Shown: one piece after another, positions 5,341-37,045 of the stretch | Layout: the number at the start of each line of letters is the position of its first letter | How positions within the stretch are numbered: the first letter of the stretch is position 1 | DNA from: Blautia hansenii | Lineage (GTDB): Bacteria > Bacillota > Clostridia > Lachnospirales > Lachnospiraceae | Direction of reading: 5' to 3' | Length of the DNA: 37,045 nucleotides | Assembly (NCBI RefSeq): GCF_013304445.1 | Contig: NZ_JAAITA010000024.1 | Coordinates: 1 to 37,045, forward strand | Position numbers and translations under genes: made by a program | The notes under the pieces: generated by a model | Told to the model about the DNA's origin: nothing | What the model saw: only the letters and a program-made list of their open reading frames with translations | Database searches by the model: none

Positions 5341-5358
5341 GATATTGTATTTAAGTTT

Positions 5359-5473: not shown

Positions 5474-5518
5474 ATTTATCACTATTTTATCGCCCAAAGG
5501 GCAGAAAGGAGAATTTTT

Positions 5519-6163: not shown

Positions 6164-6185
6164 ATTATCAAAGATCCCTAAAATG

Positions 6186-6231
6186 AAGGAATTGCGACTT
6201 TCCAGTATCTACTGGTCTGCTGCAATTCCTT
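6186..6231 (+). terminator. Terminator after ssb
   Basis: AAGGAATTGC (6186-6195) pairs with GCAATTCCTT (6222-6231), with an inner CCAGTA/TACTGG stem and TTTTCT after it. It lies only about 30 bp before the next gene, so read-through is probably needed for the rest of the module. Confidence 0.75.
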
Positions 6232-6262
6232 TTTCTATTGAAACAAACATGGAGGAAATGAA

Positions 6263-7048: not shown

Positions 7049-7059
7049 GAGGAAATCTT

Positions 7060-8877: not shown

Positions 8878-8884
8878 CACACTA

Positions 8885-9142
8885 TTGAGGAACACCTTTT
8901 ATACCGAAGCCGAACTACGCAAAACTCTGGCAGAAAATCTCGTTTATTTAAGAAAATCCAAGCAGACGAAACTCTCTCAGAAAGCCGTAGCAAGACTTCT
9001 GCATCTACCGGAAAAAACAATTATGAACTATGAAAATGGGCATACGCTTCCATCTGCTTACGCCGTCTTTCGGTTAGCCCAGTATTACGGCTGTACAATG
9101 GAAGATCTCCTAACCCAAAATATGAAAAAGAAAGAAAGGTGA
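8885..9142 (+). CDS. Small XRE-type helix-turn-helix protein (about 85 aa)
   Basis: The frame contains a Cro/CI-type helix-turn-helix: LRKTLAENLVYLRKSKQTK, LSQKAVARLLHLPEKT, IMNYENGHTLPSAYAVFRLA and YYGCTMEDLL. The frame is open from 8765, but that part overlaps the ATPase gene. A TTG at 8885, just after the ATPase stop, gives a protein of the right size. No good ribosome binding site is seen, so translation may be coupled. The gene ends overlapping the possible GTG start of the VWA gene. It probably controls this operon. Confidence 0.65.
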   Translation: MRNTFYTEAELRKTLAENLVYLRKSKQTKLSQKAVARLLHLPEKTIMNYENGHTLPSAYAVFRLAQYYGCTMEDLLTQNMKKKER

Positions 9143-11268: not shown

Positions 11269-11285
11269 AAAGAAGGAAAACATAC

Positions 11286-12023: not shown

Positions 12024-12035
12024 AGAATTTCAACA

Positions 12036-12066
12036 AAGAAGCAGCCGAAAAGACTGCTTCTTTTTA
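12036..12066 (+). terminator. Terminator ending the AAA/VWA operon
   Basis: AAGAAGCAG (12036-12044) pairs with CTGCTTCTT (12054-12062), followed by TTTAT. Confidence 0.85.
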
Positions 12067-12085
12067 TAAAGGAAAGGAGATCTCT

Positions 12086-12634
12086 ATGGATTATGCCACA
12101 ACACTAAATATTGACCAACAAGGGCGGATCATTATTCCTGCCAAAGTAAGAAAAGCCCTACAGCTTCATACAGGCGATGTATTGATGCTGGAAGCTGACA
12201 CACGCAACATCTGTCTTCGTAAATGCGACTCCCATATCCCTATGGATATCCGGTTAGACAGTTTTCTGGATATTTTACATAGTAATGTCCCTTGCCGGAT
12301 CCTGTTATGTAATGATTCCAAAATCATTGCTTCCAAGAATTATCATACAGCACTTAATATGCCTGTAACAGAAAGTATTCAAAGGCTTCTGCAACAGGGA
12401 AAGATGAAATTATTCTCTGAAAAGGAACGCATATACCCTACTATGACAGGAAAATATCCCATATCAGTCTTTTTCCCTATTTCTAAAAAAGACGAATTTG
12501 GTGAAACGTTGGGACTTTTACTATGTGCAAAAAACCAACAGCCTTTCAGCGAAATGGATTTAGGCTGTGCCAAAATGACTGCGGCGGCGATTTCCCGCTA
12601 CATCCAACAAAATTATGAAAGGAAGGTGACATAA
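12086..12634 (+). CDS. AbrB/SpoVT-type regulator with C-terminal sensor-like domain (182 aa)
   Basis: Residues 1-50 are an AbrB/MazE swapped-hairpin DNA-binding domain (LNIDQQGRIIIPAKVRKALQ, then GDVLMLEAD). The remaining 130 residues look like a GAF-type domain as in SpoVT (PCRILLCNDSKIIAS, YPISVFFPI, LGLLLCAKNQQPFSEMDLG). Good RBS GGAAAGGAG. It is followed one base later by the methyltransferase-like gene, so they form an operon. AbrB-type proteins bind AT-rich sites, so it is a candidate for the ACTATATATAGT boxes before ssb and ligA; this is a guess. Confidence 0.85.
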   Translation: MDYATTLNIDQQGRIIIPAKVRKALQLHTGDVLMLEADTRNICLRKCDSHIPMDIRLDSFLDILHSNVPCRILLCNDSKIIASKNYHTALNMPVTESIQRLLQQGKMKLFSEKERIYPTMTGKYPISVFFPISKKDEFGETLGLLLCAKNQQPFSEMDLGCAKMTAAAISRYIQQNYERKVT

Positions 12635-12635
12635 A

Positions 12636-13691
12636 ATGAATGACTTAATGCTGCATCGGGCAGCACAATTATTAGAAGCTGAATTTGGTCCCCAATGGCG
12701 TACTGTCGCTGACATGCTTGGAACGGAAGGATTGCGAAAACGTGTAGGAAAGGAACTGACTTCTTTCATGGCATACCCAGAACGTGGAGAAGGCGGTAAC
12801 AGCCAGTGGCGTGGTAACTGCTCCCCCGAAGTGGTTGCAGCACTTCTACGCTATTGCCTGGACGATAAGCGATATTACGGAAAAGATACCAGCACCTTTA
12901 CCCTCTTAGATCCTATGAGTGGCTCCGGAACTTCAAAGGCGGCTGCTGACCGTTATCAGGTACGTTCCTTGCTCTATGATCTAAATCCGGCACCTGCTTA
13001 TGGAAAAGGTAACTGGAATGCTCTAAAAGATGAAGTGGAGGATTCCGCTGATCTCATCTTTTTCCATCCACCTTACCATAATATGATCCAGTATTCCGGA
13101 AATATCTGGGGAAACCCTCACCCGGACGACCTATCCCGCTGTGAAAACTATTCGGATTTTTTAGAAAAACTAAATCACTGTATCCGGAAATTTTTCCTGG
13201 CACTTCGGAAAGGTGGCAGGCTTGCCATACTGGTAGGCGATATGCGGCTCCATGGTAAGTTCTATAGTATGCAGAATGATTTAATGCGGATGGGTGACTT
13301 TGAATCCTTTCTGGTAAAGGGCCAGTTTAATTGTGTTTCCGACAATCGGACGTACAAAAAGCCTTTCATTCCCATCGTGACAGAATATGCTCTGTTGCTG
13401 AAAAAAGCAGATTCTTTCATTATCCCCTTCAGCATCCGGCAAGAAGGTGTGTTTTCTGTACAAAATACAGATATTCTTGCACTAACTTGGCATCATCTAA
13501 TCCGGATGACAATGGAGAGTATTGGAGGAAGAGGGGCTTTAAAAGACCTGTACACTTTATTAAAGGAACACCCAAAAGCGAAAAAGAATCCGCATTATCA
13601 GGAACGTATCCGTGCCACCTTATATGAACACCCAGACGAATATATCCCTGTATCGAAAGGATATTTTCGTTTGAGTTACCCTGTTACATAA
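12636..13691 (+). CDS. DNA methyltransferase-like protein (351 aa)
   Basis: A SAM-binding motif DPMSGSGTS (about residues 92-100) and a catalytic-like HPPY (LIFFHPPYHNM, about 144-147) have the order of N4/N6 amino-methyltransferases. GGRLAILVGDMR and EYALLLKK fit later strands of the fold. The usual catalytic D/N/S before PPY is His here, so activity is open. It starts next to the AbrB-type gene (ATG 12636). No restriction enzyme is seen nearby, so it would be an orphan enzyme, for example one that protects the element during transfer. Confidence 0.75.
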   Translation: MNDLMLHRAAQLLEAEFGPQWRTVADMLGTEGLRKRVGKELTSFMAYPERGEGGNSQWRGNCSPEVVAALLRYCLDDKRYYGKDTSTFTLLDPMSGSGTSKAAADRYQVRSLLYDLNPAPAYGKGNWNALKDEVEDSADLIFFHPPYHNMIQYSGNIWGNPHPDDLSRCENYSDFLEKLNHCIRKFFLALRKGGRLAILVGDMRLHGKFYSMQNDLMRMGDFESFLVKGQFNCVSDNRTYKKPFIPIVTEYALLLKKADSFIIPFSIRQEGVFSVQNTDILALTWHHLIRMTMESIGGRGALKDLYTLLKEHPKAKKNPHYQERIRATLYEHPDEYIPVSKGYFRLSYPVT

Positions 13692-13746
13692 AAACGAGCC
13701 ATGAAAAACAGATTCTCTATGGCGATACAAAAGGAGTGTGAACACT

Positions 13747-13989
13747 ATGACAAATCGAAAGCACCATGTGAAAGATAAACAAATAACAACACTCTCTGGA
13801 TGGTTTCATTCTCCGCTACGTGTTGGGGAACGTGCTATTATTTCTGGGGTCAATGGTTTCTCTATTCTGACATCTCCTATCCTAACGATTTTGGAAGTAT
13901 CTAAGGACAGTGTCATTTTTGAAACAGAAAATACCATTTACCATTTGGTTCATACACCAGAGACCGTATCGGAAGTGATGTGTGCTTGA
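13747..13989 (+). CDS. Small unrecognised protein (80 aa)
   Basis: The product is mostly beta-strand in appearance (RVGERAIISGVNGFSILTS, VIFETENTIYHLVH) and could be a small SH3-like or OB-like domain. AAGGAG at 13731-13736 serves either GTG 13738 (1 bp away) or ATG 13747 (10 bp away); the latter is chosen. The end overlaps the next gene by a few bases. No function can be assigned. Confidence 0.55.
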   Translation: MTNRKHHVKDKQITTLSGWFHSPLRVGERAIISGVNGFSILTSPILTILEVSKDSVIFETENTIYHLVHTPETVSEVMCA

Positions 13990-14546
13990 ATAACATATAT
14001 GAACTAGGAAGCAGCCTTTGTGAATTGCTCTCCACTTTAAAGAAAAACCGGGAATACGTTCCACTTGAAATTTTACGGACACAGTATCGGGTTCCTTATG
14101 AAACCCTAAAAAAGCAAATTGGTGATACAGCGACAGCTTTTGTAAAAGAAATTACATTATCAAAGCTTATGATAAATCCAGATGTATCTCTGGAAGAGCA
14201 GATTTCTGTTATCCAACAGGCAATTACAACATCCGGGATGCTCAAAGAAATGAGCTATACCTTATCAAAACTGTATGATGTGGAACTACTGCACAGGCAG
14301 GCATTAAAATTAAGGACATATATTGAGGATGCTCTATATCCATATATTGCCCTTCAGGATTGCCTTGTAGTTGATATGGAACGTATAGAGGATACGCCAA
14401 TTATCTACAATACAATTACCCAAAAGGTTTATGAGAATGGGCAATGGAGTAAACAGGATTTGGATCTGCATGGGAAACTATTAATCTATGTAAAATCCAG
14501 TCCTCCTATGCCTGCAGCAACAGAACAAATAAACAATGGATTCTAA
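13980..14546 (+). CDS. Unrecognised helical protein (188 aa)
   Basis: The protein is mostly helical, with one stretch (LLHRQALKLRTYIEDALYPYIALQDCLVVDMERI) that suggests a coiled or packed helix. It has no known motif and no membrane segment. It overlaps the stop of the preceding gene, starting at GTG 13980 or TTG 13986 (GGAAGTGA just upstream). A strong bidirectional terminator separates it from the opposing SRAP remnant. Function unknown. Confidence 0.65.
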   Translation: MCLNNIYELGSSLCELLSTLKKNREYVPLEILRTQYRVPYETLKKQIGDTATAFVKEITLSKLMINPDVSLEEQISVIQQAITTSGMLKEMSYTLSKLYDVELLHRQALKLRTYIEDALYPYIALQDCLVVDMERIEDTPIIYNTITQKVYENGQWSKQDLDLHGKLLIYVKSSPPMPAATEQINNGF

Positions 14547-14566
14547 ATTCAAGAATTTTTTATGTC

Positions 14567-14598
14567 AAGAAGGGAAACTTTTATGGGTTTCCCTTCTT
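14567..14598. terminator. Bidirectional terminator between convergent genes
   Basis: AAGAAGGGAAAC (14567-14578) pairs with GTTTCCCTTCTT (14587-14598). It lies between the plus-strand gene ending at 14546 and the minus-strand SRAP remnant ending at 14597. Confidence 0.8.
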
Positions 14599-15182
14599 AT
14601 GAAAATAATTTCAGTTGTTCATATTCTGCTGTCCGATTCAACAGTATGGGCTTCTTAGCAAGAATAAATTCTACCGCTGCATCCTCCATAATCCAATCTT
14701 CCAGTTCTTGTCGTTCCAAAAGCAATGGCATCCGTTCATGCACCGGTGCTACAGAAGCATTTGCCTGCGTAGTCAGAATTACAAAACGATTTTGACCATT
14801 ATAGATTTGATAACACCCTGCCATAAATAATGTGGCATCCTGCTTTGGACTTTGAAAAGTATATTTTTCTTTGTTTTTACACCATTCGTAAAAGTGATGG
14901 GCAGGAATCACACATCTTCGATGCAGCACACTGTCCCGAAAGGTCTTCTTGTCCAGTATAGCCTCTACCCTTGCATTGATAAGCAATCCCTTTCCCTGGA
15001 ACCTCGGAAATCCCCACTGCATCTGCCTTGCAGCCACTTCCCTACACTCCTTTGTAAGTACAATTGCAGATTCAGACGGATGGATGTCCTGCCCATGCTC
15101 TATGATGCAGCCGATATACCGCTTCCCAGGACAAGAAGGCAGAATTTACATCTATATGAAAAATCACTTTTTCCAAACTCAC
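14597..15182 (-). pseudogene. Deletion fusion: Y-family DNA polymerase start joined to beheaded SRAP (HMCES/YedK) gene
   Basis: Reading leftwards from GTG 15182 (AAAGGAGGGG 5 bp upstream), the product begins VSLEKVIFHIDVNSAFLSW and EAVYRL. This is the N-terminus of a DinB/UmuC-type polymerase with its first catalytic Asp. It runs to a stop at 15072. Near 15100 the homology changes to another frame, which reads DIHPSESAIVL, QMQWGFPRF, LLINARVEA, CVIPAHHFYEW and VPVHERMP-type motifs of an SOS-response-associated peptidase. The MCGR start with the catalytic Cys2 of SRAP is missing. The simplest reading is one deletion that removed most of the polymerase gene and the first 30 or so SRAP codons. 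An SRAP piece of about 147 aa could still start at GTG 15037, but it cannot form the Cys2 link to abasic DNA. Confidence 0.75.
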
Positions 15183-15202
15183 GTTCCCCTCCTTTATATC
15201 CC

Positions 15203-15231
15203 ATTATATAGAACATACGTTCTGAAATCAA
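15203..15231 (-). promoter_or_regulatory. SOS promoter with LexA box
   Basis: On the minus strand TTGATT (15231-15226), a 17-bp spacer and TATAAT (15208-15203) form a promoter. The spacer holds GAACGTATGTTC (15222-15211), a match to the Firmicute LexA box GAAC-N4-GTTC. It directs the polymerase/SRAP remnant, and it is where a damage-inducible polymerase gene would be controlled. Confidence 0.8.
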
Positions 15232-15260
15232 GAGATAATATTTTCCATATCCATGCTTTC

Positions 15261-15341
15261 TCTATATATAGTAATTTTCTTCTCAGATTAAACAATATAT
15301 AGTGCTTTTATATTGACACATACTATATATAGTGTTACACT
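15261..15341 (+). promoter_or_regulatory. ligA promoter with three phased operator boxes
   Basis: TTGACA (15313-15318), a 17-bp spacer and TACACT (15336-15341) form the promoter. Boxes TCTATATATAGT (15261-15272), ACAATATATAGT (15292-15303) and ACTATATATAGT (15322-15333) are spaced 31 and 30 bp apart. The last lies between -35 and -10, as in the ssb promoter. Confidence 0.7.
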
Positions 15342-15359
15342 TACTATGTAATTATTATT

Positions 15360-15451
15360 TGTGTCATCCGGAAAGGATATACGCACGCAGTTTAGGTTTG
15401 TAAAAGTGTCAGAAGTATACTACGCTACCAGCAGGGACTTCTGGCTTTTTT
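15360..15451 (+). promoter_or_regulatory. Leader RNA upstream of ligA, relative of the ssb leader, with terminator
   Basis: TGTGT (15360-15364) pairs with ACGCA (15381-15385) around an ATCC/GGAT hairpin. The linker GCAGTTTAGGTTTG (15387-15400) matches the ssb linker. A stem then pairs GTCAGAAGT (15408-15416) with ACTTCTGGC (15437-15445), followed by six T. Order, spacing and linker agree with the ssb leader. Confidence 0.65.
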
Positions 15452-15475
15452 ATTTTGCAGGAAACTGCACACATT

Positions 15476-15509
15476 AGAGAATGAACATCCGTGTCATTCT
15501 CTTTTTTTA
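15476..15509 (+). terminator. Second terminator in the ligA leader
   Basis: AGAGAATGA (15476-15484) pairs with TCATTCTCT (15494-15502) and seven T follow. A small GCAG-GAAA-CTGC hairpin lies just before it. Two intrinsic terminators in a row before an open gene point to attenuation or antitermination. Confidence 0.75.
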
Positions 15510-15553
15510 TGCCTGAACGCAAAGAAAGGAGGAAGAAAAACCGGAACAAATAA

Positions 15554-17608
<2,055 letters not shown>

Positions 17609-17618
17609 GGAGAAATCT

Positions 17619-18035
17619 ATGAGTATCATTACATCCGTTTTTCATATCTATGGATTTCTTATTACAGAAGAGGCTGCTAATCTTATCCTTCGATATACAG
17701 AGGAAGTTTTTCCTGATTTATACAAAGAGTTCTCTGATCCAGAATCACTCTTAGCCTTTCAGGAATATCTTTGTGAGAAACTTGATGGCTGTCGTTATGG
17801 CACTGCTGAGTCTATGACGGTATGGAGGATCAAAGATCAGGAAGAACTGGACTTAAATCCAGGAGAAGAATTTTATATCATTGAACTTAAAAATTCTTCC
17901 CACTTATTTTCACAGGCGTATTCTTCTTATACGGAAGTTATCCAAGAAATTCAAGAAACGTTTGGTGAATTACTTCCTCCCGATTTTCCATTAGATGATT
18001 TTCTTGTGGAAATCATGGGCGAAGTTTGGGGATAG
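17619..18035 (+). CDS. Unrecognised protein downstream of ligA (138 aa)
   Basis: It is a small acidic soluble protein with no motif I can name. It begins MSIITSVFHIYGFLITEEAA and holds a YIIEL strand near the middle. The start is ATG 17619, 5 bp after AAGGAGA. An upstream in-frame extension from 17601 would overlap ligA and ignores this site. It is cotranscribed with ligA (stop at 17608) and closed by a hairpin. It may support ligase or plasmid maintenance, but nothing in the sequence says so. Confidence 0.65.
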   Translation: MSIITSVFHIYGFLITEEAANLILRYTEEVFPDLYKEFSDPESLLAFQEYLCEKLDGCRYGTAESMTVWRIKDQEELDLNPGEEFYIIELKNSSHLFSQAYSSYTEVIQEIQETFGELLPPDFPLDDFLVEIMGEVWG

Positions 18036-18060
18036 TGAAATGGGGTGACGCCCCATTTCA
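18036..18060 (+). terminator. Hairpin after the ligA operon
   Basis: TGAAATGGGG (18036-18045) pairs with CCCCATTTCA (18051-18060). The T-tract is weak (ACATCTTTT). Confidence 0.7.
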
Positions 18061-18099
18061 AACATCTTTTGCAACTTTACATTTATAGTTATTTTACCG

Positions 18100-18128
18100 T
18101 TGGAAAGCACCTTCTTTTTTGATATAAT
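18100..18128 (+). promoter_or_regulatory. Promoter of the DUF3990/DUF3791 genes
   Basis: TTGGAA (18100-18105), a 17-bp spacer and TATAAT (18123-18128), with GGAGGG and ATG 18154 downstream. It gives this pair its own transcript. Confidence 0.75.
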
Positions 18129-18153
18129 GAAAGCAAATGGAGGGATAACGTAT

Positions 18154-18840
18154 ATGAGTATTCAATCAGATATAGAGATGCTATCAATTGAAGCACTGGA
18201 ATATTATGCTAAAAAGCACCAAATATCAGAAGACGATGCCTTTAATATTTTCTACAAACATCAAGTATTTGAAAAAATACTGGTACAACACGAAACGTTG
18301 CACCAATTAGATATTCATGATACTTTTCAATACGTAGAAGATATTATAGAAGAAGATACGCCCACGCTTGTTCTTTTCCATGGCTCCAATATTGCATTTG
18401 ATAAAATCGATTTGAACAAATCACATAACCGTCGTGATTTTGGTCGTGGATTTTATTGCACAGTTCTCGAACAGCAGGCAAATGAATGGGCGAACCGCCT
18501 GTACTTGCGTACTCATACTGGCGGCAAATATGTGTATCGGTATATCTTCCAGCAATCCGAGGAACTAAAAATCAAACATTTTGCCACCTTGGACAAGGAA
18601 TGGTTGGAGTTTGTCAAACTCAACCGTACTGTCGGCGATATCCAGCATCACTATGATGTTGTAATTGGGCCTGTTGCGGATGATAATACCATGGAAACTG
18701 TACAACTTTATTTGTCCGGTATCTTGAGCGTGGATGAAGCGGTTACAAGGCTTCGGTATAATAAGGTTAATAATCAGGTTTCCTTTCACACCCCACTTGC
18801 TCTTGAACATCTGGTATTGGAATCTCGAAAGGATGTGTAA
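18154..18840 (+). CDS. DUF3990 protein, predicted ADP-ribosyltransferase-like (228 aa)
   Basis: The C-terminal 155 residues match DUF3990: LVLFHGSNIAFDKIDL, RRDFGRGFYCT, WANRLYLRT, VYRYIF, WLEFVKLNR and YDVVIGPVADD. The H-G and RGFY motifs recall the NAD-binding core of the ADP-ribosyltransferase fold. The N-terminal 65 residues (IEALEYYAKKHQISEDDAFNIFYKH) resemble the DUF3791 family, of which a separate copy follows. ATG 18154 follows GGAGGG; an upstream TTG is the -35 box, not a start. Together with the next gene it looks like a toxin-antitoxin-type pair. Target is unknown and activity is inferred from the fold family. Confidence 0.75.
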   Translation: MSIQSDIEMLSIEALEYYAKKHQISEDDAFNIFYKHQVFEKILVQHETLHQLDIHDTFQYVEDIIEEDTPTLVLFHGSNIAFDKIDLNKSHNRRDFGRGFYCTVLEQQANEWANRLYLRTHTGGKYVYRYIFQQSEELKIKHFATLDKEWLEFVKLNRTVGDIQHHYDVVIGPVADDNTMETVQLYLSGILSVDEAVTRLRYNKVNNQVSFHTPLALEHLVLESRKDV

Positions 18841-18843
18841 AAC

Positions 18844-19089
18844 ATGGAAGGTAAATATTTTTTTAACGGAAAAGATATTTCAATGAATCTGTATATTCAG
18901 ATCCGGGATGTTATCGATATTATTATGGAAAAGAGTAATCTTTCCTTTCCGGATGCCATGGGCAAATTTTATCATTCAAAAACTTACAAGGCCCTACAAA
19001 ATACAGAAAATACTCTTTGGGCGGAATCTGCCGGCTATATTGCAGACCGCTATTACGAAGAACAAGAAGAAGCACAAATAAACAAATAA
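18844..19089 (+). CDS. DUF3791-family small protein, possible antitoxin partner (81 aa)
   Basis: The sequence IRDVIDIIMEKSNLSFPDAMGKFYHSKTYKALQNTENTLWAES followed by YIADRYYEEQ is typical of DUF3791, a short helical family regularly encoded next to DUF3990. It starts 3 bp after the DUF3990 stop. A terminator follows. The small acidic product and tight coupling suit an antitoxin or adaptor; this is inference from arrangement. Confidence 0.75.
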   Translation: MEGKYFFNGKDISMNLYIQIRDVIDIIMEKSNLSFPDAMGKFYHSKTYKALQNTENTLWAESAGYIADRYYEEQEEAQINK

Positions 19090-19111
19090 CAAACAAAAAA
19101 ATATGTTTAAG

Positions 19112-19144
19112 AAGGAACTGCTTACCATAAGCGGTTCCTTTTTT
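19112..19144 (+). terminator. Terminator after the DUF3791 gene
   Basis: AAGGAAC...GCTTA pairs with AAGC...GTTCCTT around CCAT, followed by TTTT. The NADAR gene starts 22 bp later. Confidence 0.8.
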
Positions 19145-19165
19145 GTATAAGAAAGAAGGGATTAC

Positions 19166-19627
19166 ATGTATATTAATACCTATTCGAATCATTACCAGCA
19201 AACAATTGACCACTTTCATGGAGCATACGCTTTTCTTAGTAACTTCTATCCTTCCCGGATATATTACCGGGGCTACTGGTATGCAAATAATGAGGCTGCT
19301 TTCCAGGCACAAAAGACCATTTCCCCTAAAGAACAGCTTCAATTTACCAAATTAAGGAATCCAAAAGATGCAAAAAAACTGGGAAGAGAAGTGCAGCTCC
19401 GTTCAGACTGGGAAAGTGTAAAGCTTATGTACATGTATGAAATTTGTATGTGCAAATTCATGCAGAATCCTACCCTATGTAAAGCATTACTTGCTACTGG
19501 GAATTGTCACCTTGTTGAAGGAAACAACTGGGGAGATTACTTTTGGGGTTCTGTAAATGGTCATGGCGAAAATCATCTGGGCAAAATTCTTATGGATATA
19601 CGTGCAAAGCTTCAATTTGAATGTTAA
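19166..19627 (+). CDS. NADAR-domain protein, YbiA-like (153 aa)
   Basis: Family motifs are clear: AYAFLSNFYPSRI near the start, ANNEAAFQAQK in the middle, and NNWGDYFWGSVNGHGENHLG followed by KILMDIR at the end. The length is that of a single NADAR domain. NADAR proteins act on ADP-ribose compounds: some split riboflavin intermediates, and others have been reported to remove ADP-ribose from guanine in DNA and to serve as antitoxin to DarT-type toxins. Its position directly after a predicted ADP-ribosyltransferase-like gene suggests such a reversal role. GAAGAAGGG lies before the ATG. Confidence 0.85.
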   Translation: MYINTYSNHYQQTIDHFHGAYAFLSNFYPSRIYYRGYWYANNEAAFQAQKTISPKEQLQFTKLRNPKDAKKLGREVQLRSDWESVKLMYMYEICMCKFMQNPTLCKALLATGNCHLVEGNNWGDYFWGSVNGHGENHLGKILMDIRAKLQFEC

Positions 19628-19713
19628 AACATAATTTATCCAATTTTGCACTGTATGAACTGCAAATATTTTGCTATAATGAAAGATAGATTTTAAAGAA
19701 AGGATTTGTGCTT

Positions 19714-21072
19714 ATGTATCTGAAGCGTTTTGTCTATGACCGTCTTCTGGATTGGAAAAATGAAGGAGGTCATAGTACCCTGGAAGTCGGTGGAGCCCGT
19801 CAGGTTGGAAAAACCTACCTGATACAGAAATTCGCTGACGAAAACTACAAACACAAAATTTATATTAACCTGTTTGAATTAAGCGGCAAACAGTTTATGG
19901 AATGTTATAAACAGGCAACCGACTGGACACCTGGAACAAAACGGCGGGAGCATCCTCTCCACGATGCCTTCCAGTTATATGAACCGGACTTTATTGATTC
20001 TGAAGATACCGTCATCATTATTGACGAAATCCAGGAGTCTTCCGAAATTTATAACCGTATCCGGGAGTTTACACGTCACTTTAAAGCCCATTTCATCATC
20101 ACAGGAAGCTACCTTGGACGGATTTATGATCCAGAATTCCGTTATTCCAGCGGCGATGTCACCAAACTCACCATCTATACGCTTTCTTTTGAGGAGTTTT
20201 TGATGGCCTATGATCAGAATCTGTATGGCGATTACAAAAAAATATCTCTTGTTTCCTCTGAAGCAGAAGTCTATAATCGCTTAAAGGAAACCTATGAGCT
20301 GTACTGCCAGATTGGTGGCTATCCCAAAGTGGTCGAAAACTATCTGGAAAACCGGAACATCGTAAAAGCTCAAGGCGAACTCGTAAAAATCATTGATACC
20401 TTTACCAATGAATCCATTCGCTATTTTACGGATATTTTGTATACCAAAGTGTTTACCCATATTTTCTTTTCCATCTGCCGTATTTTAAATCGTGAAAAGA
20501 AAGGATTTTCAGAAGACAGCATCAGTGAAGAATTGCAAAAACTGGTAACCAAAGACTACTCCAGCAATATTTCAAAGGCTACCTGCAACCGTGCCATTAG
20601 CTGGCTGTACTTTTCTGGAATCATTGGATTCTGTGCAAAAATAACAGAAATGGACATTCTGGATTTTAAGTCTGCAAGCCGCTGCTACTTCATGGATATG
20701 GGGCTGGCAAATTATTATCTGACACGTACCGGTACCGATTCCCGTGTACTTGCAGGCACATTAAATGAAAATTATGTCTATATCAACCTGAAGAAACGCC
20801 AGGATTTTCCACCGGAAATTTCCTTTGAAACCCCAGCTTTTGCTACTTACCGAGGCGGAGAAATTGATTTTTTGGCACAAAGCCTATCTTCTTCCACCCG
20901 ATATTTAATAGAAGTAAAAGCCGGAAAAGGGACTGCTTCCACTGCCCAGAAAGCTCTGGCTCAGGGAAAAGCAGATAAGCTTCTTTATTTAAAAGGGGCA
21001 ACCAAAGGAGGAATAGACGGAAAAACAGAAACACTGCCTATTTATTTATTGGAACAATACAAGTTTAATTAA
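19714..21072 (+). CDS. AAA ATPase with DUF4143 domain (452 aa)
   Basis: Walker A is in GGARQVGKTYL (about residues 27-37), Walker B in TVIIIDEIQES, and a sensor in FIITGSYLG. The C-terminal DUF4143 region carries EIDFLAQ and YLIEVKAGKG, which look like the D and E-x-K of a PD-(D/E)XK nuclease fold. Such proteins are common in gut Firmicutes and archaea; their role is not settled, with defence or DNA repair suspected. ATG 19714 is chosen, 10 bp after AAAGAAAGGA; an in-frame GTG at 19708 is possible. A TATAAT at 19675-19680 without a clear -35 may be its promoter. Confidence 0.85.
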   Translation: MYLKRFVYDRLLDWKNEGGHSTLEVGGARQVGKTYLIQKFADENYKHKIYINLFELSGKQFMECYKQATDWTPGTKRREHPLHDAFQLYEPDFIDSEDTVIIIDEIQESSEIYNRIREFTRHFKAHFIITGSYLGRIYDPEFRYSSGDVTKLTIYTLSFEEFLMAYDQNLYGDYKKISLVSSEAEVYNRLKETYELYCQIGGYPKVVENYLENRNIVKAQGELVKIIDTFTNESIRYFTDILYTKVFTHIFFSICRILNREKKGFSEDSISEELQKLVTKDYSSNISKATCNRAISWLYFSGIIGFCAKITEMDILDFKSASRCYFMDMGLANYYLTRTGTDSRVLAGTLNENYVYINLKKRQDFPPEISFETPAFATYRGGEIDFLAQSLSSSTRYLIEVKAGKGTASTAQKALAQGKADKLLYLKGATKGGIDGKTETLPIYLLEQYKFN

Positions 21073-29345: not shown

Positions 29346-30536
29346 TTATTTCAAATATTTTTTCAGTTCTTCTACCTTGTCTAATCTTTCCCATGGAAGG
29401 TTGAGATCATTTCTTCCAAAATGTCCATAGGCTGCCGTCTGTTTATAGATTGGACGGCGGAGATTCAACGTCTGAATGATTCCTGCTGGTCGCAGATCAA
29501 ATTCTTTTCTTATCATATCTACCAGACTCTCATCTGAAATTTTCCCGGTTCCAAAGGTGTCTACCATAATAGAGGTCGGATGAGCCACCCCAATTGCGTA
29601 AGACAACTGAATTTCACATTTTTTTGCTAGACCTGCAGCCACAATATTCTTCGCAACATAACGAGCAGCATAAGATGCAGAACGATCTACTTTCGTACAG
29701 TCTTTTCCAGAAAAAGCTCCGCCGCCATGCCGTGCCATACCACCATAGGTATCTACAATAATCTTGCGTCCTGTTACACCACTATCTCCGTGAGGACCAC
29801 CGATGACAAAACGCCCTGTTGGATTGATGAAAAATTTTGTATTCTCATCTACCAGTTCTGTTGGAATAATCGGTTCCAATACATATTTTTTTATATCTTC
29901 GTGGATCTGCTCCTGTGTCACATCTGGATCATGCTGTGTTGACAGAACCACTGCATCCAACCGGTGCGGAATACCTGCTTCGTCATATTCTACAGTAACC
30001 TGACTCTTACCGTCCGGTCTTAAATAATTCAACAAACCATCTTTACGGACCTGCGTAAGCTGCCGAGTCAATTTGTGTGCCAGTGAAATTGGATATGGCA
30101 TAAATTCATTCGTTTCGTCACATGCGTAACCAAACATCATACCCTGATCCCCAGCACCAATTGCATCAAGCTCTTCTTCTGACATTTTGTGTTCTTTTGC
30201 TTCCAATGCCTTATTCACACCCAAAGCAATATCTGCTGACTGCTCATCAATTGCCGTTAAGACGGCACAGGTATGTGCATCAAATCCATAATCTCCGTTG
30301 TCATAACCAATTTCTTTAATCGTTTCTCTTACCACCTGCTGCATATCTATATACGCATTGGTCGTGATTTCTCCCATCACTAATACCATACCCGTTGTAA
30401 TTGCAGTCTCACAGGCCACTCTGCTCATCGGATCCTTCTCCATAAGAGCATCCAATATGGCGTCTGATATGGCATCACAAATTTTGTCCGGATGTCCTTC
30501 TGTTACCGATTCTGAGGTAAATAATCTTTTCTCCAT
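29346..30536 (-). CDS. metK: S-adenosylmethionine synthetase (396 aa)
   Basis: The full MetK is present: [31 protein letters not shown], the [12 protein letters not shown] nucleotide-site motif, [20 protein letters not shown] and [17 protein letters not shown]. It makes SAM from methionine and ATP. AAAGGAG lies 8 bp before the ATG. No S-box riboswitch was recognised in the 290 bp upstream, although many Firmicute metK genes have one. It may be the host's housekeeping copy or an extra one. Its neighbours (secreted hydrolase, peptide cluster) differ from a normal methionine-cycle context. Confidence 0.95.
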
Positions 30537-31771: not shown

Positions 31772-31878
31772 TCATCATTTCTATACATCTATACCGAAAA
31801 AAAGTCAATCTATACAAACAATATTACAACTTCTTTTCTTTTAAATATACTAGTGCTTATAGGGGAGGAGAAATGCTT

Positions 31879-32550
31879 ATGAAAAAACTATTATTGATTG
31901 GCAACCCGTCCGTCTTGGGGAAAAATCTGGAGAATATCTTAAAGCAAAATTATCATACCGATTTTATTTCCGCTGTACCAAAGCAAATTAGTAGCATATC
32001 CTTTAACTCTTATAATGCTTTAATCCTGGATTTCACACTGTTACATAAATACAGCCTTACCATAAGTAAAGCTGCAAAAAAATGCTCCCCAAACATCATT
32101 GTTCTGTTTTTATGTCCTACTAATATTCCAGAACAAATAATTTTGGATTTCTACGAAGCCGGTGCTAATGATCATTTATATTCGACTCTCTCATCACCAG
32201 CACTTTTAATGAAAAAATTGGATATCTTATTTACCAACTATCATCTAACCACACAGTACGAAGACAGCCATATAACTTTAAATTTTGACTCCTTAACCGC
32301 AGTGATTGACGGGATTTCTACTTCCTTTACTCCACTGGAATTTAAGCTGCTCAAACTACTCTCTCTAAATCCAAACACTGTTTTAACCAGACAACATCTT
32401 TTATATTCACTATGGGATCGAAATGGGAATCATGTAGAAGAAACCTCTCTGAATAGTATGATCTGCCGTATACGCCAAAGAATTGATACTGAAAATCATC
32501 ATTATATTAAGACAATATATGGGATTGGATATATATGGATTACATATTAA
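31879..32550 (+). CDS. Orphan OmpR-type response regulator with atypical receiver (223 aa)
   Basis: The C-terminal 90 residues are a good OmpR/PhoB winged helix (FTPLEFKLLKLLSLNPNTVL, LTRQHLLYSLWD, SLNSMICRIRQRID, YIKTIYGIGYIW). The N-terminal domain has receiver-like strands (LLLIGNPS, ALILDF, VLFLCPT), but the acidic pair after strand 1 is replaced by GNPS. Asp51 is present. Phosphorylation is therefore doubtful. No histidine kinase is seen. ATG 31879 is chosen, 8 bp after GGGGAGGAG. It points toward the peptide cluster and is a candidate regulator of it. Confidence 0.8.
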   Translation: MKKLLLIGNPSVLGKNLENILKQNYHTDFISAVPKQISSISFNSYNALILDFTLLHKYSLTISKAAKKCSPNIIVLFLCPTNIPEQIILDFYEAGANDHLYSTLSSPALLMKKLDILFTNYHLTTQYEDSHITLNFDSLTAVIDGISTSFTPLEFKLLKLLSLNPNTVLTRQHLLYSLWDRNGNHVEETSLNSMICRIRQRIDTENHHYIKTIYGIGYIWITY

Positions 32551-32602: not shown

Positions 32603-32740
32603 CTATTCTGCACAAGTAATTAAACAAGTCGTCATAAAACAATCCGTTATACACGCTTTTCTTGTTACTCCACAGTCTGAAGTGTATATATTGACCTCTT
32701 CTTCCTGTAATTCAACATTCTCTAATTTTACATCGTTCAT
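32603..32740 (-). CDS. Three-Cys core precursor-like peptide A with extra C-terminal Cys (45 aa)
   Basis: An acidic leader-like half ends EEEVNIYT, followed by SDCGVTRKACITDC and a tail FMTTCLITCAE. The first three Cys follow C-X6-C-X3-C, as in five other peptides of this cluster. The usual GGGA is replaced by MTTC, and two further Cys are present. AAGGAGG is 6 bp before ATG 32740. It is last in the row B-A downstream of the transporter. It is probably a secreted, modified or disulfide-bonded peptide; the class is unknown. Confidence 0.75.
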   Translation of the reverse strand: MNDVKLENVELQEEEVNIYTSDCGVTRKACITDCFMTTCLITCAE

Positions 32741-32856
32741 AAAAATCCTCCTTGTTTCATTCCGTACTTTTGATTATGCACATATCTAAACGCTACCACC
32801 AATATTGGTATTTTGTTAATCCTCAATCGTCTCTATAAAAGCTCTCTTACTTTATG

Positions 32857-32997
32857 TTAGTTCATAGGGGTTATAAGAGCACCTCCACCGATACAATCTG
32901 TTACACAATCTTTTCTTGTTGTGCCACAATCATCTGTATATACATTCACTTCTTCTATCTCTATTTCATTATTTTTTACTTTTCTCTCGTTTTCCAT
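32857..32997 (-). CDS. Three-Cys precursor-like peptide B (46 aa)
   Basis: A leader-like half is rich in Glu, Lys and Asn and ends EIEEVNVYT. The core is DDCGTTRKDCVTDC with tail IGGGALITPMN. It has the family pattern C-X6-C-X3-C-X-GGGA. AAAGGAAA precedes ATG 32997. The GGG might also be read as a processing site, because it lies eight to nine residues before the end in several members. Confidence 0.78.
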   Translation of the reverse strand: MENERKVKNNEIEIEEVNVYTDDCGTTRKDCVTDCIGGGALITPMN

Positions 32998-33036
32998 GTC
33001 TTATTTTCCTTTCTGTATAAACTTATTCAATTGTTA

Positions 33037-33180
33037 TTAGTATTCAATATTGAGCCAAGCGCCTCCACCCAAGCAATCATTTAAACAATGAAATTGAATC
33101 TCTCCACAATCATCCGTATAAATGCTTACTTCTGCATTAAAGAGTTCTCTTGGCTCTTGCTCATCTCTTTGCTCCCTCAT
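33037..33180 (-). CDS. Three-Cys precursor-like peptide C (47 aa)
   Basis: The product starts MREQRDEQEPRELFNAEVSI and has the core DDCGEIQFHCLNDC followed by LGGGAWLNIEY. The Cys spacing equals that of the other five. There is no Ser or Thr between or after the Cys, which argues against lanthionine rings. ATG 33180 follows AAGGAGGG; an upstream ATG in the same frame lies before this site. It comes directly after the permease gene. Confidence 0.78.
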   Translation of the reverse strand: MREQRDEQEPRELFNAEVSIYTDDCGEIQFHCLNDCLGGGAWLNIEY

Positions 33181-33291
33181 CCGCCTTCCCTCCTTCCCAT
33201 TAATATTTTTTGATAACATCAGTATACTATTTTAAAATTTCATTTCCATATTTTATGTGCAGATTGCATTTTTTTCTTTCTGTTTGGATAA

Positions 33292-35646
33292 CTATTCCAT
33301 TCTTAGCTGATCAATGATGGATTTTTTCTTCTGTTCTCTTATTTGGTAAATAGATAATATAACCTGTATTAACAGAAGTACCAATACGTATATACCCATA
33401 TAAAAAAACGGAAATGAATATTCTACCACTTTCCCATAACAGCTTATACTCATTTGACGACAAATTAACATTGCAATAGGAGTTCCAATTAGCAAAGTCA
33501 TACAAATGCTTAAGATAGAATAGCACATACCTTCACCGATAATAACTTTATAAAGCTGCTTTTCTGTCAATCCTATAGACCGTAAAACACTATATTCACG
33601 TCTTCTGAATAATTGATTGGACAGTGTCGTGTTGATCAAATTTATCACACCAAAAAGGAAAATTAGGCTGGAAATCATCTGCAAAATGAGATATATTGTA
33701 TTATTTTTCTCATATCTATTCACTCTTTCGCTAAAGCTTTCGATTGCAATATCTTCGTTTTGTGAAATCGTATTACGAAGATTTTCATCAACACTGCTCT
33801 CCTCCCTCGGATCAATGTTTATTACCCATGTAAAATCAAAATTATTTATTCCAGGCAATAATTCTTTAAAAGCGTCTTCCGTCATACACATCATCGCAGC
33901 ATTAAATCCTAACTGCCCACTTCCTTTTGTAGATGCAACTTTAGTTGATTGGAAAATTCCTGATACTGTTACTGGTATTTTTTCTCTTCCTAACGAAATC
34001 TCAAACTGCATTCCTACTTTTACTTCTTCCCCAAAATCTTCATAACCAGACTTTACTAATATTTCACGGGAATTTTCAGGCATTCGCCCTGCAATTAATG
34101 CATCTTCGATTTCTTTCTTATTTTGCTTGGTAATCATATCACACATTCCTCTTCCTCCATATCCCTGATATTCAAAGGTAAAGGTTGCTGATTTTCTTAA
34201 TGTTTGTATCTCTTTGATACCTGGAATGCTACCGATTTCTTCTTTCAGCTTATCATTAAGAGGATTCCCGGAATATAATTGTTCTGTCGGCTCTTTATCT
34301 GAATTTATATATATTTTATAATCAGCATCACCAAAATAATGTTGTGCCATCCTTTCGGGTGATTGTAAAAGTAAAGCTGAAGATACCGTTAGCAGAATGA
34401 TTCCTCCAAGGCTTAATGATATAACAATGCTCCATACTTTTTTGGGTTCTCTCTTAAAATTCATTATTCCCAAAGATATTGGCGTAAGCTTTCTATTTTT
34501 TTCTTGTTTCGATATTTTTATATTACTAATTGCTGTCATCCTCACAGATTCCATCGGAGATGCCTTCATTGCTATTTTAATTGGTTTATTTATAGATATA
34601 CTGACAATAATGCCGCAGATAGCTACGGTTATCATTGCACATACAATATAATTCCCAATATTAATTCCTTTTGCTAGTATTATTGCTGAACAAAGTATTG
34701 CTAATGAAATACCTGTCAGTATTCCTCTAACACCTAAATATCTTCCTTCCTTTTTTACAATCTTTTTTATCTGCTTTTGTGTCGTTCCTATCGTTCTAAG
34801 TTGTCCGTAATTTTGTATTTTATTAATTATGGAAATTTGGAAAATGCTTTTTATAACAGTATAGCTTCCTATCAAAACAAGTCCAATTAATATTCCTAAG
34901 ATACCTAATTGATCTGCAGAAATCACTTGATTAACGTACCTGAAATATGGATTATTAAATGCCACAGGTAAATTATTTTTTTCACCAATTTCTCTGCAAT
35001 ATTTCTTTATATCTTCAACATTCTTTTCCTTCACATGCACATAAACCATATTGGAATCTTCATTGTAGTTTTCATAATTTTCCAGTTTTTCCCAAGATAT
35101 TAAAAATGGAAATGTTTCTCCACTAGTCGTCATATCAAGAATCCCTGAAATCGTATATTCTCCTGATAGTTGATCCGTGTTTAAATTGATCTTATCTCCT
35201 ACCTTTTTATCTTTTCCATACTTTTCCAACCATTTTTTACATACAGCAATCTGTTTTTCTTCCTCTGGAACTTTTCCACTGGATAAACTCATTTGATTTC
35301 TCATCATATAGAGCATTGGCTGATCCATGTAAAAAAAAGTTGCTGTATATTTTTTATCAGACGGTATATCCCCAACAATATAGTATTGTCCTACTCTTTC
35401 AAATCCCGTTTCTTCTCTTAGCTTTAACAGTTTTTCTTCTGAAACATTCATATATACTGCTTCGTATGTATCCTGAATCTGTTTTTTCTTCACTTCCAGC
35501 AGTGAAGTCGCAATAAGTCCTGAAAAACATATCAAAAATGATGCTAGTGCTATAGAAATCATTAACATAACATTTCTTCGCTTTTCAGACTGAAGATTTC
35601 TCTGTACAATATTTTTTATTGCTTTTTTATTCCCTGATTTTCTCAT
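33292..35646 (-). CDS. ABC transporter permease with two FtsX domains (784 aa)
   Basis: A first membrane helix (about residues 25-50) is followed by an outer domain of about 200 residues. Then come three helices with an FtsX-type region (KIQNYGQLRTIGTTQKQIKKIV), a second single helix, another outer domain, and three final helices with a second FtsX motif (RREYSVLRSIGLTEKQLYKVI). This is the duplicated layout of MacB/BceB-related exporters and immunity pumps. There is no peptidase domain. ATG 35646 is preferred, 9 bp after GGAG; it overlaps the ATPase gene. With peptides on both sides it most likely exports them or protects the cell. Confidence 0.85.
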   Translation of the reverse strand: MRKSGNKKAIKNIVQRNLQSEKRRNVMLMISIALASFLICFSGLIATSLLEVKKKQIQDTYEAVYMNVSEEKLLKLREETGFERVGQYYIVGDIPSDKKYTATFFYMDQPMLYMMRNQMSLSSGKVPEEEKQIAVCKKWLEKYGKDKKVGDKINLNTDQLSGEYTISGILDMTTSGETFPFLISWEKLENYENYNEDSNMVYVHVKEKNVEDIKKYCREIGEKNNLPVAFNNPYFRYVNQVISADQLGILGILIGLVLIGSYTVIKSIFQISIINKIQNYGQLRTIGTTQKQIKKIVKKEGRYLGVRGILTGISLAILCSAIILAKGINIGNYIVCAMITVAICGIIVSISINKPIKIAMKASPMESVRMTAISNIKISKQEKNRKLTPISLGIMNFKREPKKVWSIVISLSLGGIILLTVSSALLLQSPERMAQHYFGDADYKIYINSDKEPTEQLYSGNPLNDKLKEEIGSIPGIKEIQTLRKSATFTFEYQGYGGRGMCDMITKQNKKEIEDALIAGRMPENSREILVKSGYEDFGEEVKVGMQFEISLGREKIPVTVSGIFQSTKVASTKGSGQLGFNAAMMCMTEDAFKELLPGINNFDFTWVINIDPREESSVDENLRNTISQNEDIAIESFSERVNRYEKNNTIYLILQMISSLIFLFGVINLINTTLSNQLFRRREYSVLRSIGLTEKQLYKVIIGEGMCYSILSICMTLLIGTPIAMLICRQMSISCYGKVVEYSFPFFYMGIYVLVLLLIQVILSIYQIREQKKKSIIDQLRME

Positions 35647-36325
35647 TTTCACCAACTCCAGTTTTCAAAAATTTTCCATCTTCAATCCTCACTATTCGTT
35701 GTGCTAAATCTGCAATGTGCTCATTATGAGTAATCATCACAACACTTTGCTCAAATTTTCTACTCGTACTTTGAATCAATTCCAGTACATCCCGACTCGT
35801 CTTGCTGTCAAGATTTCCTGTAGGTTCATCCGCAAGTATAATTGCCGGCTTCGTAATCAAGGCTCTTGCAATCGCAACACGCTGCTGCTGTCCGCCAGAT
35901 AACATATTCGGCATACTTTTCAGTTTCTCCTTTAAACCGAGCATATTAATAATTTCGTTCAAAAATATCTGATCAACTTCCTGCCCATCTAATTCAATTG
36001 GCAAAACTATATTCTCATAAACATTTAACATGGGGAGTAAGTTATAGTTTTGAAAAATAAAGCCTATATTCCTTCTTCGAAAGATTGTGAGCTGCTCATC
36101 ATTTAAGTCTGACAATTTTTTTCCTTGGATTTTAATTTCCCCATAGGTAGGTACATCCAATCCTCCCAACATATTCAATAAGGTAGATTTACCACTTCCT
36201 GATGTACCAACAATAGCTACAAATTCTCCCTTTTCAACACTAAAATCTACTCCATCCAATGCCTTTGTTATATTAGGTTCCTTTCCATAATATTTTTTTA
36301 TATTTCTTGCTTCCAATACTTTCAT
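35627..36325 (-). CDS. ABC transporter ATP-binding protein (232 aa)
   Basis: Walker A GTSGSGKS is at residues 40-47. The Q-loop is in [10 protein letters not shown], the signature in [16 protein letters not shown], Walker B with D-loop in [12 protein letters not shown], and the switch His in MITHNEHIA. It belongs to the LolD/MacB/BceA branch. The gene overlaps the permease start, so the two are coupled. It lies directly after peptide D, separated by about 105 bp that hold a hairpin (AAGGCTATTCGA with TCGAATAGCCTT) followed by T-rich DNA. Confidence 0.9.
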
Positions 36326-36380
36326 AATTATTTCTCCTTTTAAATCTTTTTTTAATTCATATCTATCTATATATCAATGA

Positions 36381-36414
36381 AAGGCTACTCGATTTTGTTT
36401 TCTCGAATAGCCTT
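36381..36414 (-). terminator. Hairpin between peptide D and the transporter genes
   Basis: AAGGCTATTCGA (near 36403-36414 on the minus strand) pairs with an equal complementary arm near 36381-36393. It probably acts as an attenuator, giving more peptide than transporter transcript, as in the bacteriocin cassette at 2.3 kb. Confidence 0.65.
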
Positions 36415-36431
36415 CCATATTTTTGTATGTA

Positions 36432-36581
36432 TTACTTAGTTGTATTTAAAAAAGCGCCGCCACCGATACAATCATTTTCACATTTCTTACGAACGATATC
36501 GCAGTCTGGCCATTCATAAATGTCAACTTCTTCTTTTAATAACTCTTCATTTTCAGTTACTTCGATTCTCTTTTCTTCCAT
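36432..36581 (-). CDS. Three-Cys precursor-like peptide D (49 aa)
   Basis: The leader-like part is acidic and ends LLKEEVDIYE; the core is DCDIVRKKCENDC with tail IGGGAFLNTTK. It keeps C-X6-C-X3-C and GGGA, but the Gly after the first Cys is Asp. No Ser or Thr lies in the core. ATG 36581 is 9 bp after AGGAGG. Confidence 0.78.
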   Translation of the reverse strand: MEEKRIEVTENEELLKEEVDIYEWPDCDIVRKKCENDCIGGGAFLNTTK

Positions 36582-36598
36582 GACAACCATCCTCCTAT

Positions 36599-36739
36599 TT
36601 AATAATCCGGATTCAGAAAAGATCCGCCACCAAAGCAGTCATTTTTACAATGATTCTGGATTTCTCCACAGCCTGCTGCATAAACATTGATTTCTTCTTT
36701 TGATAATTCCTGAGCTTCTTTTTCTTTTAATTCGTTCAT
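36599..36739 (-). CDS. Three-Cys precursor-like peptide E (46 aa)
   Basis: The product begins MNELKEKEAQELSKEEINVY and has the core GCGEIQNHCKNDC followed by FGGGSFLNPDY. It resembles C most closely (GEIQ-x-HC-x-NDC). The stop lies next to the ribosome binding site of D, so E and D are on one transcript. Confidence 0.78.
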   Translation of the reverse strand: MNELKEKEAQELSKEEINVYAAGCGEIQNHCKNDCFGGGSFLNPDY

Positions 36740-36762
36740 AGTCTACTGTCTCCTTTCCGAAA

Positions 36763-36906
36763 TTACTCCTCTTCTGTAATTAAAGCTAATACCCCAAAAC
36801 AATCTGTTACGCAATTATACCTTGTCACACCACAGTCATTCGTATAAATACTTACTTCCTCTTTGCTAAGTTCTGAGGATTTTCTTTCTGCATTGAATTC
36901 TTCCAT
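36763..36906 (-). CDS. Three-Cys precursor-like peptide F (47 aa)
   Basis: The product begins MEEFNAERKSSELSKEEVSI and has the core NDCGVTRYNCVTDC with tail FGVLALITEEE. It resembles A and B (GVTR-xx-C-x-TDC) and lacks the GGG. AAGGAGG lies upstream of ATG 36906. It is the first peptide seen in the row F-E-D-transporter-C-B-A. A TATACT near 36993 on the minus strand may be its promoter; more genes may lie beyond the window edge. Confidence 0.78.
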   Translation of the reverse strand: MEEFNAERKSSELSKEEVSIYTNDCGVTRYNCVTDCFGVLALITEEE

Positions 36907-37045
36907 AGAACTCACCTCCTTATGCCTATATTTATACGCTTGCACACACCTTTTATCTATATTTCTTGTTTAAATTGCTCTTTTTTCTTCCTAGTATAAC
37001 GAATATTAAATAATTGCTATATTAAATTGATACTGCTTCCTCTTC

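Follow-up and report, generated by a model that had tools for sequence, protein, structure and literature searches.

Six related peptide genes around an ABC transporter pair

The 37,045-nucleotide stretch of Blautia hansenii DNA analyzed here (the window) is the entire contig NZ_JAAITA010000024.1 of assembly GCF_013304445.1, called C16 below, and the assembly holds nothing to its right. Close to that end, the window carries six short genes for candidate precursor peptides together with an ATP-binding cassette (ABC) transporter ATPase and an FtsX-type permease. All of them lie on the − strand and, in the order of transcription, three peptides are followed by the ATPase, the permease and three further peptides. 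The first to be transcribed is peptide 6 (36763..36906; 47 amino acids from an inner ATG; EEVSIYTNDCGVTRYNCVTDCFGVLALITEEE), which matches the profile of the family with an E-value of 6.7e-24. Behind it come peptide 5 (36599..36739; 46 amino acids; EEINVYAAGCGEIQNHCKNDCFGGGSFLNPDY), peptide 4 (36432..36581; 49 amino acids from the second ATG; EEVDIYEWPDCDIVRKKCENDCIGGGAFLNTTK), the ATPase (35627..36325), the permease (33292..35655; 787 amino acids with two FtsX stretches), peptide 3 (33037..33180; 47 amino acids from an inner ATG; AEVSIYTDDCGEIQFHCLNDCLGGGAWLNIEY) and peptide 2 (32857..32997; 46 amino acids; EEVNVYTDDCGTTRKDCVTDCIGGGALITPMN); peptides 5 to 2 are each recognized from the open reading frame (ORF), the alignment and the profile. 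The last is peptide 1 (32603..32740; 45 amino acids; EEVNIYTSDCGVTRKACITDCFMTTCLITCAE), the tail of which has two extra cysteines. A gene for an OmpR-type response regulator with a clear DNA-binding domain (31873..32550, + strand) is convergent with the peptides.

A preliminary description of this DNA had proposed six paralogous genes of 45-49 codons with a C-X6-C-X3-C core, placed on a single strand with three on either side of the ATPase/FtsX pair. All six ORFs are indeed present on the − strand in this arrangement, and the core occurs in each peptide, more precisely as C-X6-C-X2-D-C. M1, E10, E15, Y19, the three cysteines and the Asp preceding the last of them are common to the whole alignment. 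The six genes form one family. The N-terminal half of the peptides is acidic and ends in E-[VI]-x-[IV]-Y, and no signal peptide was seen on inspection in any of them. Some finer traits of the preliminary description turned out to be less general. The ending EEV-x-I/V-Y is strict in four peptides, while one reads AEV and one EEI; GGGA or GGGS follows the core in four, peptides 1 and 6 being without it; and of the ribosome-binding sites, described as good for every gene, that of peptide 2 is by eye weaker than the rest.

When all six frames of the window were searched, C-X6-C-X2-D-C occurred six times, in each case with E[VI]x[IV]Y ahead of it. The string was absent from 200 simulated windows (first-order Markov), and together with E[VI]x[IV]Y it was absent from 114 loci around other radical S-adenosylmethionine (SAM) genes, comprising 1.89 million bases, so that chance ORFs were rejected as an explanation. 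The bare C-X6-C-X2-D-C string was present eight times in the same 114 loci (about 0.16 per 37 kb) and is thus less rare in real DNA. Among the peptide genes, the differences at the three codon positions were 0.43/0.35/0.57 over 688 codon pairs, and the nonsynonymous rate (dN) was below the synonymous rate (dS) in all seven gene pairs with an estimable dS, which could not be estimated for the other eight of the 15 pairs. The genes thus look like coding sequence under constraint.

Searches with Pfam and NCBIfam models gave no match at cut-off for any of the six peptides. The only matches at E-values up to 10 were three weak ones, each to a single peptide and far below the curated cut-offs, and they were dismissed: HydE (E 0.0066, peptide 5), Kv2channel (0.19, peptide 2) and Meleagrin (0.12, peptide 6). 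With 13 aligned members of the family, an anti-phage defence role was rejected on the lack of a PADLOC match up to E 1, and phage proteins were rejected on a best PHROG match of E 0.045 in one of the 13 peptides. No PDB match was better than E 3.3, and a solved homologue was rejected as well. The preliminary description knew no named class with this pattern, and the family libraries checked do not name the peptides either.

Relatives of the peptides and their neighbours

A profile built from the six window peptides was run against the B. hansenii genome and its relatives. In the own genome, the six scored E 6e-22 to 1.5e-25, and three further paralogues were found at E 8e-6, 0.0013 and 0.0024; the next matches (E 0.16 and 0.32) contain internal stops. 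Two of the paralogues, on contig C23, immediately follow a pair of radical-SAM genes. The third, at a second locus of contig C20, is flanked by a single radical-SAM gene and a LytTR regulator, and a GHKL kinase is encoded close by. Altogether the profile found seven peptides outside the window: two on C23, one on C20, two in a genome of the same genus (G008) and two in a genome of another genus (G418). For every one of them, the next non-peptide gene on one side is a radical-SAM gene. An eighth relative, in Anaerocolumna sp. AGMB13025, was found via a search with the enzymes and is therefore not independent. C-X2-D-C is kept in 13 of 13 aligned peptides and C-X6-C-X2-D-C in 11. The proposal of a ribosomal peptide system is therefore supported, as seven of the seven independent relatives show a candidate precursor of a ribosomally synthesized and post-translationally modified peptide (RiPP) beside a modifying enzyme. 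The opposite case, homologues that never sit beside such genes, was not what the search returned.

The system is rare among the genomes searched. Peptide profiles matched in 2 of 145 relatives, 2 of 397 genomes of the family, 2 of 20 of the genus and 1 of 392 of the order; these sets overlap, the own genome is counted in each, and the remaining matches are G008 and G418, to which the enzyme search adds Anaerocolumna. Up to 17 candidates per genome were scored in the family and order sets, where misses are possible. Among the best 80 matches of a scan of the genome_contigs set with rSAM2 (one of the radical-SAM enzymes described below), one was a true cluster, that of Anaerocolumna, and 79 were loci with more distant enzymes. 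In these 79, the best profile match among open frames of up to 200 amino acids had an E-value of 0.88, and six of the loci hold the C-X6-C-X2-D-C string but lack E[VI]x[IV]Y ahead of it. A scan of the viral_contigs set with rSAM1 gave at least 35 distant enzymes of 21-31% identity, and the bare string was present at two of these 35.

Unbroken clusters and their enzymes

Compact, unbroken clusters were found in G008, G418 and Anaerocolumna. They combine the peptides with three radical-SAM genes (rSAM1, rSAM2 and rSAM3), an ABC exporter, a subtilase and a phospholipase C-like protein. The G008 peptide (profile E 5.4e-16) lies 114 bases after rSAM3, and in G418 and Anaerocolumna peptides with the C-X6-C-X2-D-C core adjoin the enzymes. 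Alternatively, the six peptides could be bacteriocins, plain or with disulfide bonds, that leave the cell through the neighbouring ATPase/FtsX pair, with the radical-SAM clusters serving other peptides. This would suit the window itself, where the transporter alone is adjacent and the closest enzymes are on other contigs. Given the close linkage in the unbroken clusters, the missing signal peptides and the resemblance of the acidic N-terminal half to an enzyme-binding leader, we consider it very unlikely.

The products of rSAM1 and rSAM2 are PapB/CteB-like radical-SAM/SPASM enzymes, while rSAM3 is more distant; the best solved relative of rSAM2 is CteB (5wgg, E 6e-58), which rSAM3 matches less well (E 6e-16). 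For all five rSAM1/rSAM2-type enzymes scanned, the best NCBIfam match was rSAM_PapB, at 183, 199, 206, 207 and 216 bits, of which 207, 216 and 183 bits belong to the enzymes beside the C23 peptides and the second-locus peptide of C20. The rSAM1 and rSAM2 of C20 are 92% and 97% identical to those of G008, which were among the enzymes scanned. None of the five reached the cut-off of 340 bits of the PapB model (NF047865). Among the 25 best matches shown per enzyme, the five scored 114-136 bits with the SCIFF model (TIGR03974, cut-off 425), 118-147 bits with the QhpD model (TIGR03906, cut-off 453) and 64-92 bits with the RumMC model (cut-off 720). The best NCBIfam match of the G008 rSAM3 was the sactipeptide maturase StsB, at 65.8 bits against a cut-off of 625.

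These scores bear on two known types of product. A true ranthipeptide cluster, in which PapB-like enzymes form thioethers from Cys to the beta-carbon of Asp, would explain why PapB is the best match in five of five cases and why the Asp next to the third Cys is invariant in all 13 peptides; according to passages of PMC9413430, C-X3-D motifs are where PapB forms its Cys-Asp thioethers, and the enzyme also accepts other distances between Cys and Asp, ranging from adjacent to six residues. However, the enzymes stay well below the PapB cut-off, the C-X3-D/E precursor motif given in the same passages is not conserved, C-X2-D-C standing in its place throughout, and a third, unlike enzyme is present in all three unbroken clusters and on C20. 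We therefore regard a ranthipeptide cluster as somewhat unlikely. Sactipeptides, with thioethers from Cys to alpha-carbons, would agree with the StsB match of rSAM3, which is however very far from its cut-off, and rSAM1 and rSAM2 resemble maturases of the PapB and CteB types most. The products of PapB and SCIFF enzymes are described as linked to non-alpha carbons in passages of PMC9413430 and PMC8172795, while a passage of another paper (PMC7876137) calls CteB sactionine-forming. This assignment seems very unlikely to us.

A radical-SAM enzyme, a subtilase and an ABC exporter occur together in all four clusters (C20, G008, G418 and Anaerocolumna). The C20 subtilase belongs to Pfam S8, and the D-H-S triad is kept in all four subtilases, in which no signal peptide was seen by inspection. 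For the G008 subtilase, the one of the four that was scanned with it, the QhpE model (NF049966) was the only NCBIfam match at E 1e-10, with 98 bits against a cut-off of 165.

Two further observations concern these clusters. A zinc phospholipase C-like protein is encoded in all four (L123:6412-7260, L021:2624-3475, L032:5572-6471 and L034:14133-14990); by blastp, the proteins are 55-99% identical between all four loci, and those of C20 and Anaerocolumna match Pfam Zn_dep_PLPC. In G008, a Cys-every-fifth (CefA/CefB) RiPP cluster follows directly behind the peptide (L021:10164-13798), its CefB scoring 660 bits (cut-off 600) and its CefA 63 bits (cut-off 30). The CefA model (NF038108) matched neither the six window peptides nor the G008 peptide.

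An insertion sequence and the probable missing half of the operon

The last 55 bases of the window (36991..37045) are shared with four other contig ends. They are one end of an insertion sequence, which breaks the assembly just upstream of the peptides. The element is probably present in five copies, and its ends start with CTAGTATA. It breaks the assembly at ten contig ends, and three genes are by eye interrupted by it. Exact matching located one of its ends on C12, C20, C32, C35 and C74, and the other on C9, C16, C23, C34 and C73. The preliminary description had pointed to a possible maturase beyond the right edge of the window. No sequence of the contig follows at that edge, but the likely continuation, C20, holds three radical-SAM genes. 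Their order with the other genes on C20 is rSAM1, exporter, subtilase, rSAM2 and rSAM3, and the contig then runs into the insertion-sequence end right behind rSAM3. The C20 proteins are 88-97% identical to those of G008.

By inspection, three other pairs of contig ends match via the interrupted genes, and C20 and C32 are therefore left to pair with C16 and C23. When the unbroken rSAM3-peptide intergenic sequence of G008 was aligned with the possible junctions, the raw score, which comes with no significance estimate, was 41.5 for C20 with C16, 19.5 for C32 with C16 and 23.0 for C20 with C23. The order and direction of the genes and a backbone 98% identical to G008 (window 15102-20930) agree with the pairing of C20 and the window. 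A junction of the window with C23 through a single copy was rejected, as both carry the same end. The missing half of the peptide operon is thus very probably contig C20, and the original operon very probably read rSAM1, exporter, subtilase, rSAM2, rSAM3, peptides 6-5-4, ATPase, FtsX and peptides 3-2-1.

Proposed system and mechanism

We propose, with a probability of roughly 0.78, that the six genes encode the precursors of a multi-peptide RiPP system that is cross-linked by radical-SAM enzymes, cleaved by a subtilase, exported by an MsbA-type protein and carried on an apparent integrative element. It is through the C20 junction only that the six window peptides would receive this assignment. 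The acidic N-terminal half ending in E-[VI]-x-[IV]-Y would be a leader bound by the radical-SAM enzymes, which would form thioether or similar cross-links within C-X6-C-X2-D-C, with the invariant Asp as the likeliest acceptor. Covalent cross-links formed by radical chemistry are more likely than plain disulfides, and the retention of three enzymes makes two or more different modifications likely. Next, the subtilase would cut off the leader while still in the cytoplasm, and the product would be exported by the MsbA-type protein, in the same order as in QhpD-QhpE-QhpF. The ATPase/FtsX pair and the regulator may sense or expel the product and in this way protect the producer. Mature peptides of about 25 residues, several variants at once, would act on competing bacteria; an antibacterial or signalling role is what we infer for them.

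Several observations weigh against this proposal. The window itself holds no maturase and its junction with C20 is inferred, not sequenced; the same pairing places the C23 peptides beside C32, a chromosome-like contig with by eye sugar-transporter-like and heat-shock-like ORFs, which is unexplained. Co-transcription may be lost, because the insertion sequence would separate rSAM3 from peptide 6. Nor is the full enzyme set always side by side, since the two C23 peptides are accompanied by no more than two radical-SAM genes, and the one peptide at the second locus of C20 and G008 by a single such gene; rSAM3, protease and exporter were not seen directly beside the peptides of C23, which is cut off at its end, or of that second locus. 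Furthermore, rSAM1 and rSAM2 begin at the radical-SAM motif with no leader-binding domain ahead of it. No radical-SAM enzyme of the system reaches the cut-off of any maturase model among its 25 best matches, and this makes the cross-link chemistry a guess. Finally, no ATPase/FtsX pair was seen in the G008 stretches read (L176:6000-12301 and L021:1-16000).

Transporter, regulator and a possible signalling side

The window ATPase has LolD as its best NCBIfam match (227 bits, cut-off 308). An ATPase/FtsX pair with an OmpR-type regulator is found in two of the three unbroken clusters, those of G418 and Anaerocolumna, to which the window proteins are 72% and 66% (ATPase), 27% and 26% (permease) and 35% and 31% (regulator) identical, respectively. 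In Anaerocolumna, a kinase, the OmpR regulator, the ATPase and the FtsX permease are adjacent, kinase and regulator forming a two-component pair; no kinase was seen beside the ATPase/FtsX pair in the window or in L032:5000-16000. The receiver domain of the window regulator is degenerate (Pfam Response_reg E 0.12, compared with 1.3e-27 and 1.8e-28 for the G418 and Anaerocolumna relatives), and the protein is possibly phosphorylation-independent. The pair probably serves self-protection or sensing, with the roles of permease and kinases taken from knowledge of their families. The MsbA-type ABC protein of C20 is likely the exporter rather than the FtsX pair.

Signalling could be the main job, with the peptides acting as pheromones read by histidine kinases and killing being secondary or absent. 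Genes for agr-like regulators (LytTR and GHKL kinase) surround the related peptide at the second locus of C20 and G008. Between these two genomes, the core of this peptide is almost the same but its leader has diverged, as expected if a receptor constrains the signal. The six window peptides, however, differ much in the core, and their array includes a self-protection-like transporter; both traits fit effectors better, and no kinase is adjacent in the window. Signalling as the main job seems rather improbable to us. The second-locus peptide (L014:10020-10175 and L176:10912-11067; core GCSERTQRCLTDCPWPFPG) is a pheromone candidate in its own right, with its own radical-SAM gene and LytTR/GHKL-kinase genes beside it. 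The GHKL kinases of the two loci are 67% identical overall, and this peptide may be the pheromone of the system.

Apparent carrier element and other genes of the window

By Pfam, the window also encodes a rolling-circle replication initiator, a single-strand binding protein and a resolvase, and contig C23 encodes a TrbL-like conjugation protein. These genes fit an integrative or conjugative element, which is what the carrier looks like. A 15.6 kb part of the window (5304-20930) is 98% identical to a G008 stretch next to a related cluster. A complete S-adenosylmethionine synthetase gene (29346-30536, − strand) is one of three in the genome, the others being on C5 (84% identical) and C12 (52%). 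By tblastn, none of 11 other stretches that were tested has such a gene; as an additional source of SAM close to a radical-SAM peptide system, the window gene is suggestive. A second ABC pair (2365-5021, + strand) consists of an ATPase (Pfam ABC_tran) and a membrane protein of about 650 amino acids without a Pfam family.

Comparison with known systems

Small Cys-rich precursors, an N-terminal leader and SPASM radical-SAM enzymes are shared with the PapB (freyrasin) and CteB (SCIFF) systems. The present enzymes fall below the respective cut-offs (340 and 425 bits), the core is C-X6-C-X2-D-C instead of repeated C-X3-D, and there are three different enzymes, a subtilase, a phospholipase C-like protein and arrays of variant precursors.

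With qhpD-qhpE-qhpF of the QHNDH pathway, the clusters have in common a SPASM radical-SAM enzyme, a subtilisin-like leader protease, an ABC exporter and Asp as a possible acceptor. According to passages of PMC7876137, that pathway starts with the formation of Cys-Asp/Glu thioethers by QhpD; the leader is next cut off by QhpE, still in the cytoplasm, and export is the task of QhpF, an ABC protein. Here, in contrast, the substrate is a peptide of 41-52 residues on an apparent mobile element, the scores are below the QhpD (453) and QhpE (165) cut-offs, and no dehydrogenase subunits were noticed among the ORFs read, no search having been aimed at them. The shared trio of enzyme, protease and exporter shows a likeness of working only.

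Ruminococcin C-type systems have several precursor variants. With these and other multi-peptide sactipeptides of the gut, the clusters also share the use of two or more radical-SAM enzymes, the number being two for RumC in the abstract of PMC8188230; RumMC scores remain far below the cut-off of 720, and NCBIfam holds no common precursor family.

BceRS-BceAB-type detoxification modules consist of a kinase, an OmpR regulator, an ATPase and an FtsX permease, and this complete four-gene set is adjacent in the Anaerocolumna cluster. The window differs in having a permease of about 790 amino acids with two FtsX stretches, a degenerate receiver and no adjacent kinase.

Since the enzymes remain below the maturase cut-offs and the peptides are in no model, we file the system as an apparent radical-SAM RiPP variant distinct from the ranthipeptide, sactipeptide and QHNDH types. 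More tentatively, and with the odds against it, it may form a RiPP class of its own, in which three unlike radical-SAM enzymes would jointly build a polycyclic C-X6-C-X2-D-C core with a new cross-link pattern. A QhpD-E-F-like route would then have been redeployed from enzyme-subunit maturation to a mobile antibacterial array, and the phospholipase C-like protein and an agr-like circuit with a radical-SAM-modified pheromone would round off the weapon and its switch. On literature searches alone, at the level of abstracts and passages, no description of this cluster was found and it appears to be undescribed.

The radical-SAM RiPPs made by gut Clostridia supply narrow antibacterials. In the genomes searched, the peptide family described here is rare; it is apparently mobile, and no library searched has a name for it. 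Its compact gene set of precursors, three maturases, a protease, an exporter and likely immunity genes would make the chemistry open to co-expression, and its resemblance to QhpD-QhpE-QhpF suggests that enzyme subunits and small exported peptides may be matured by a single route.

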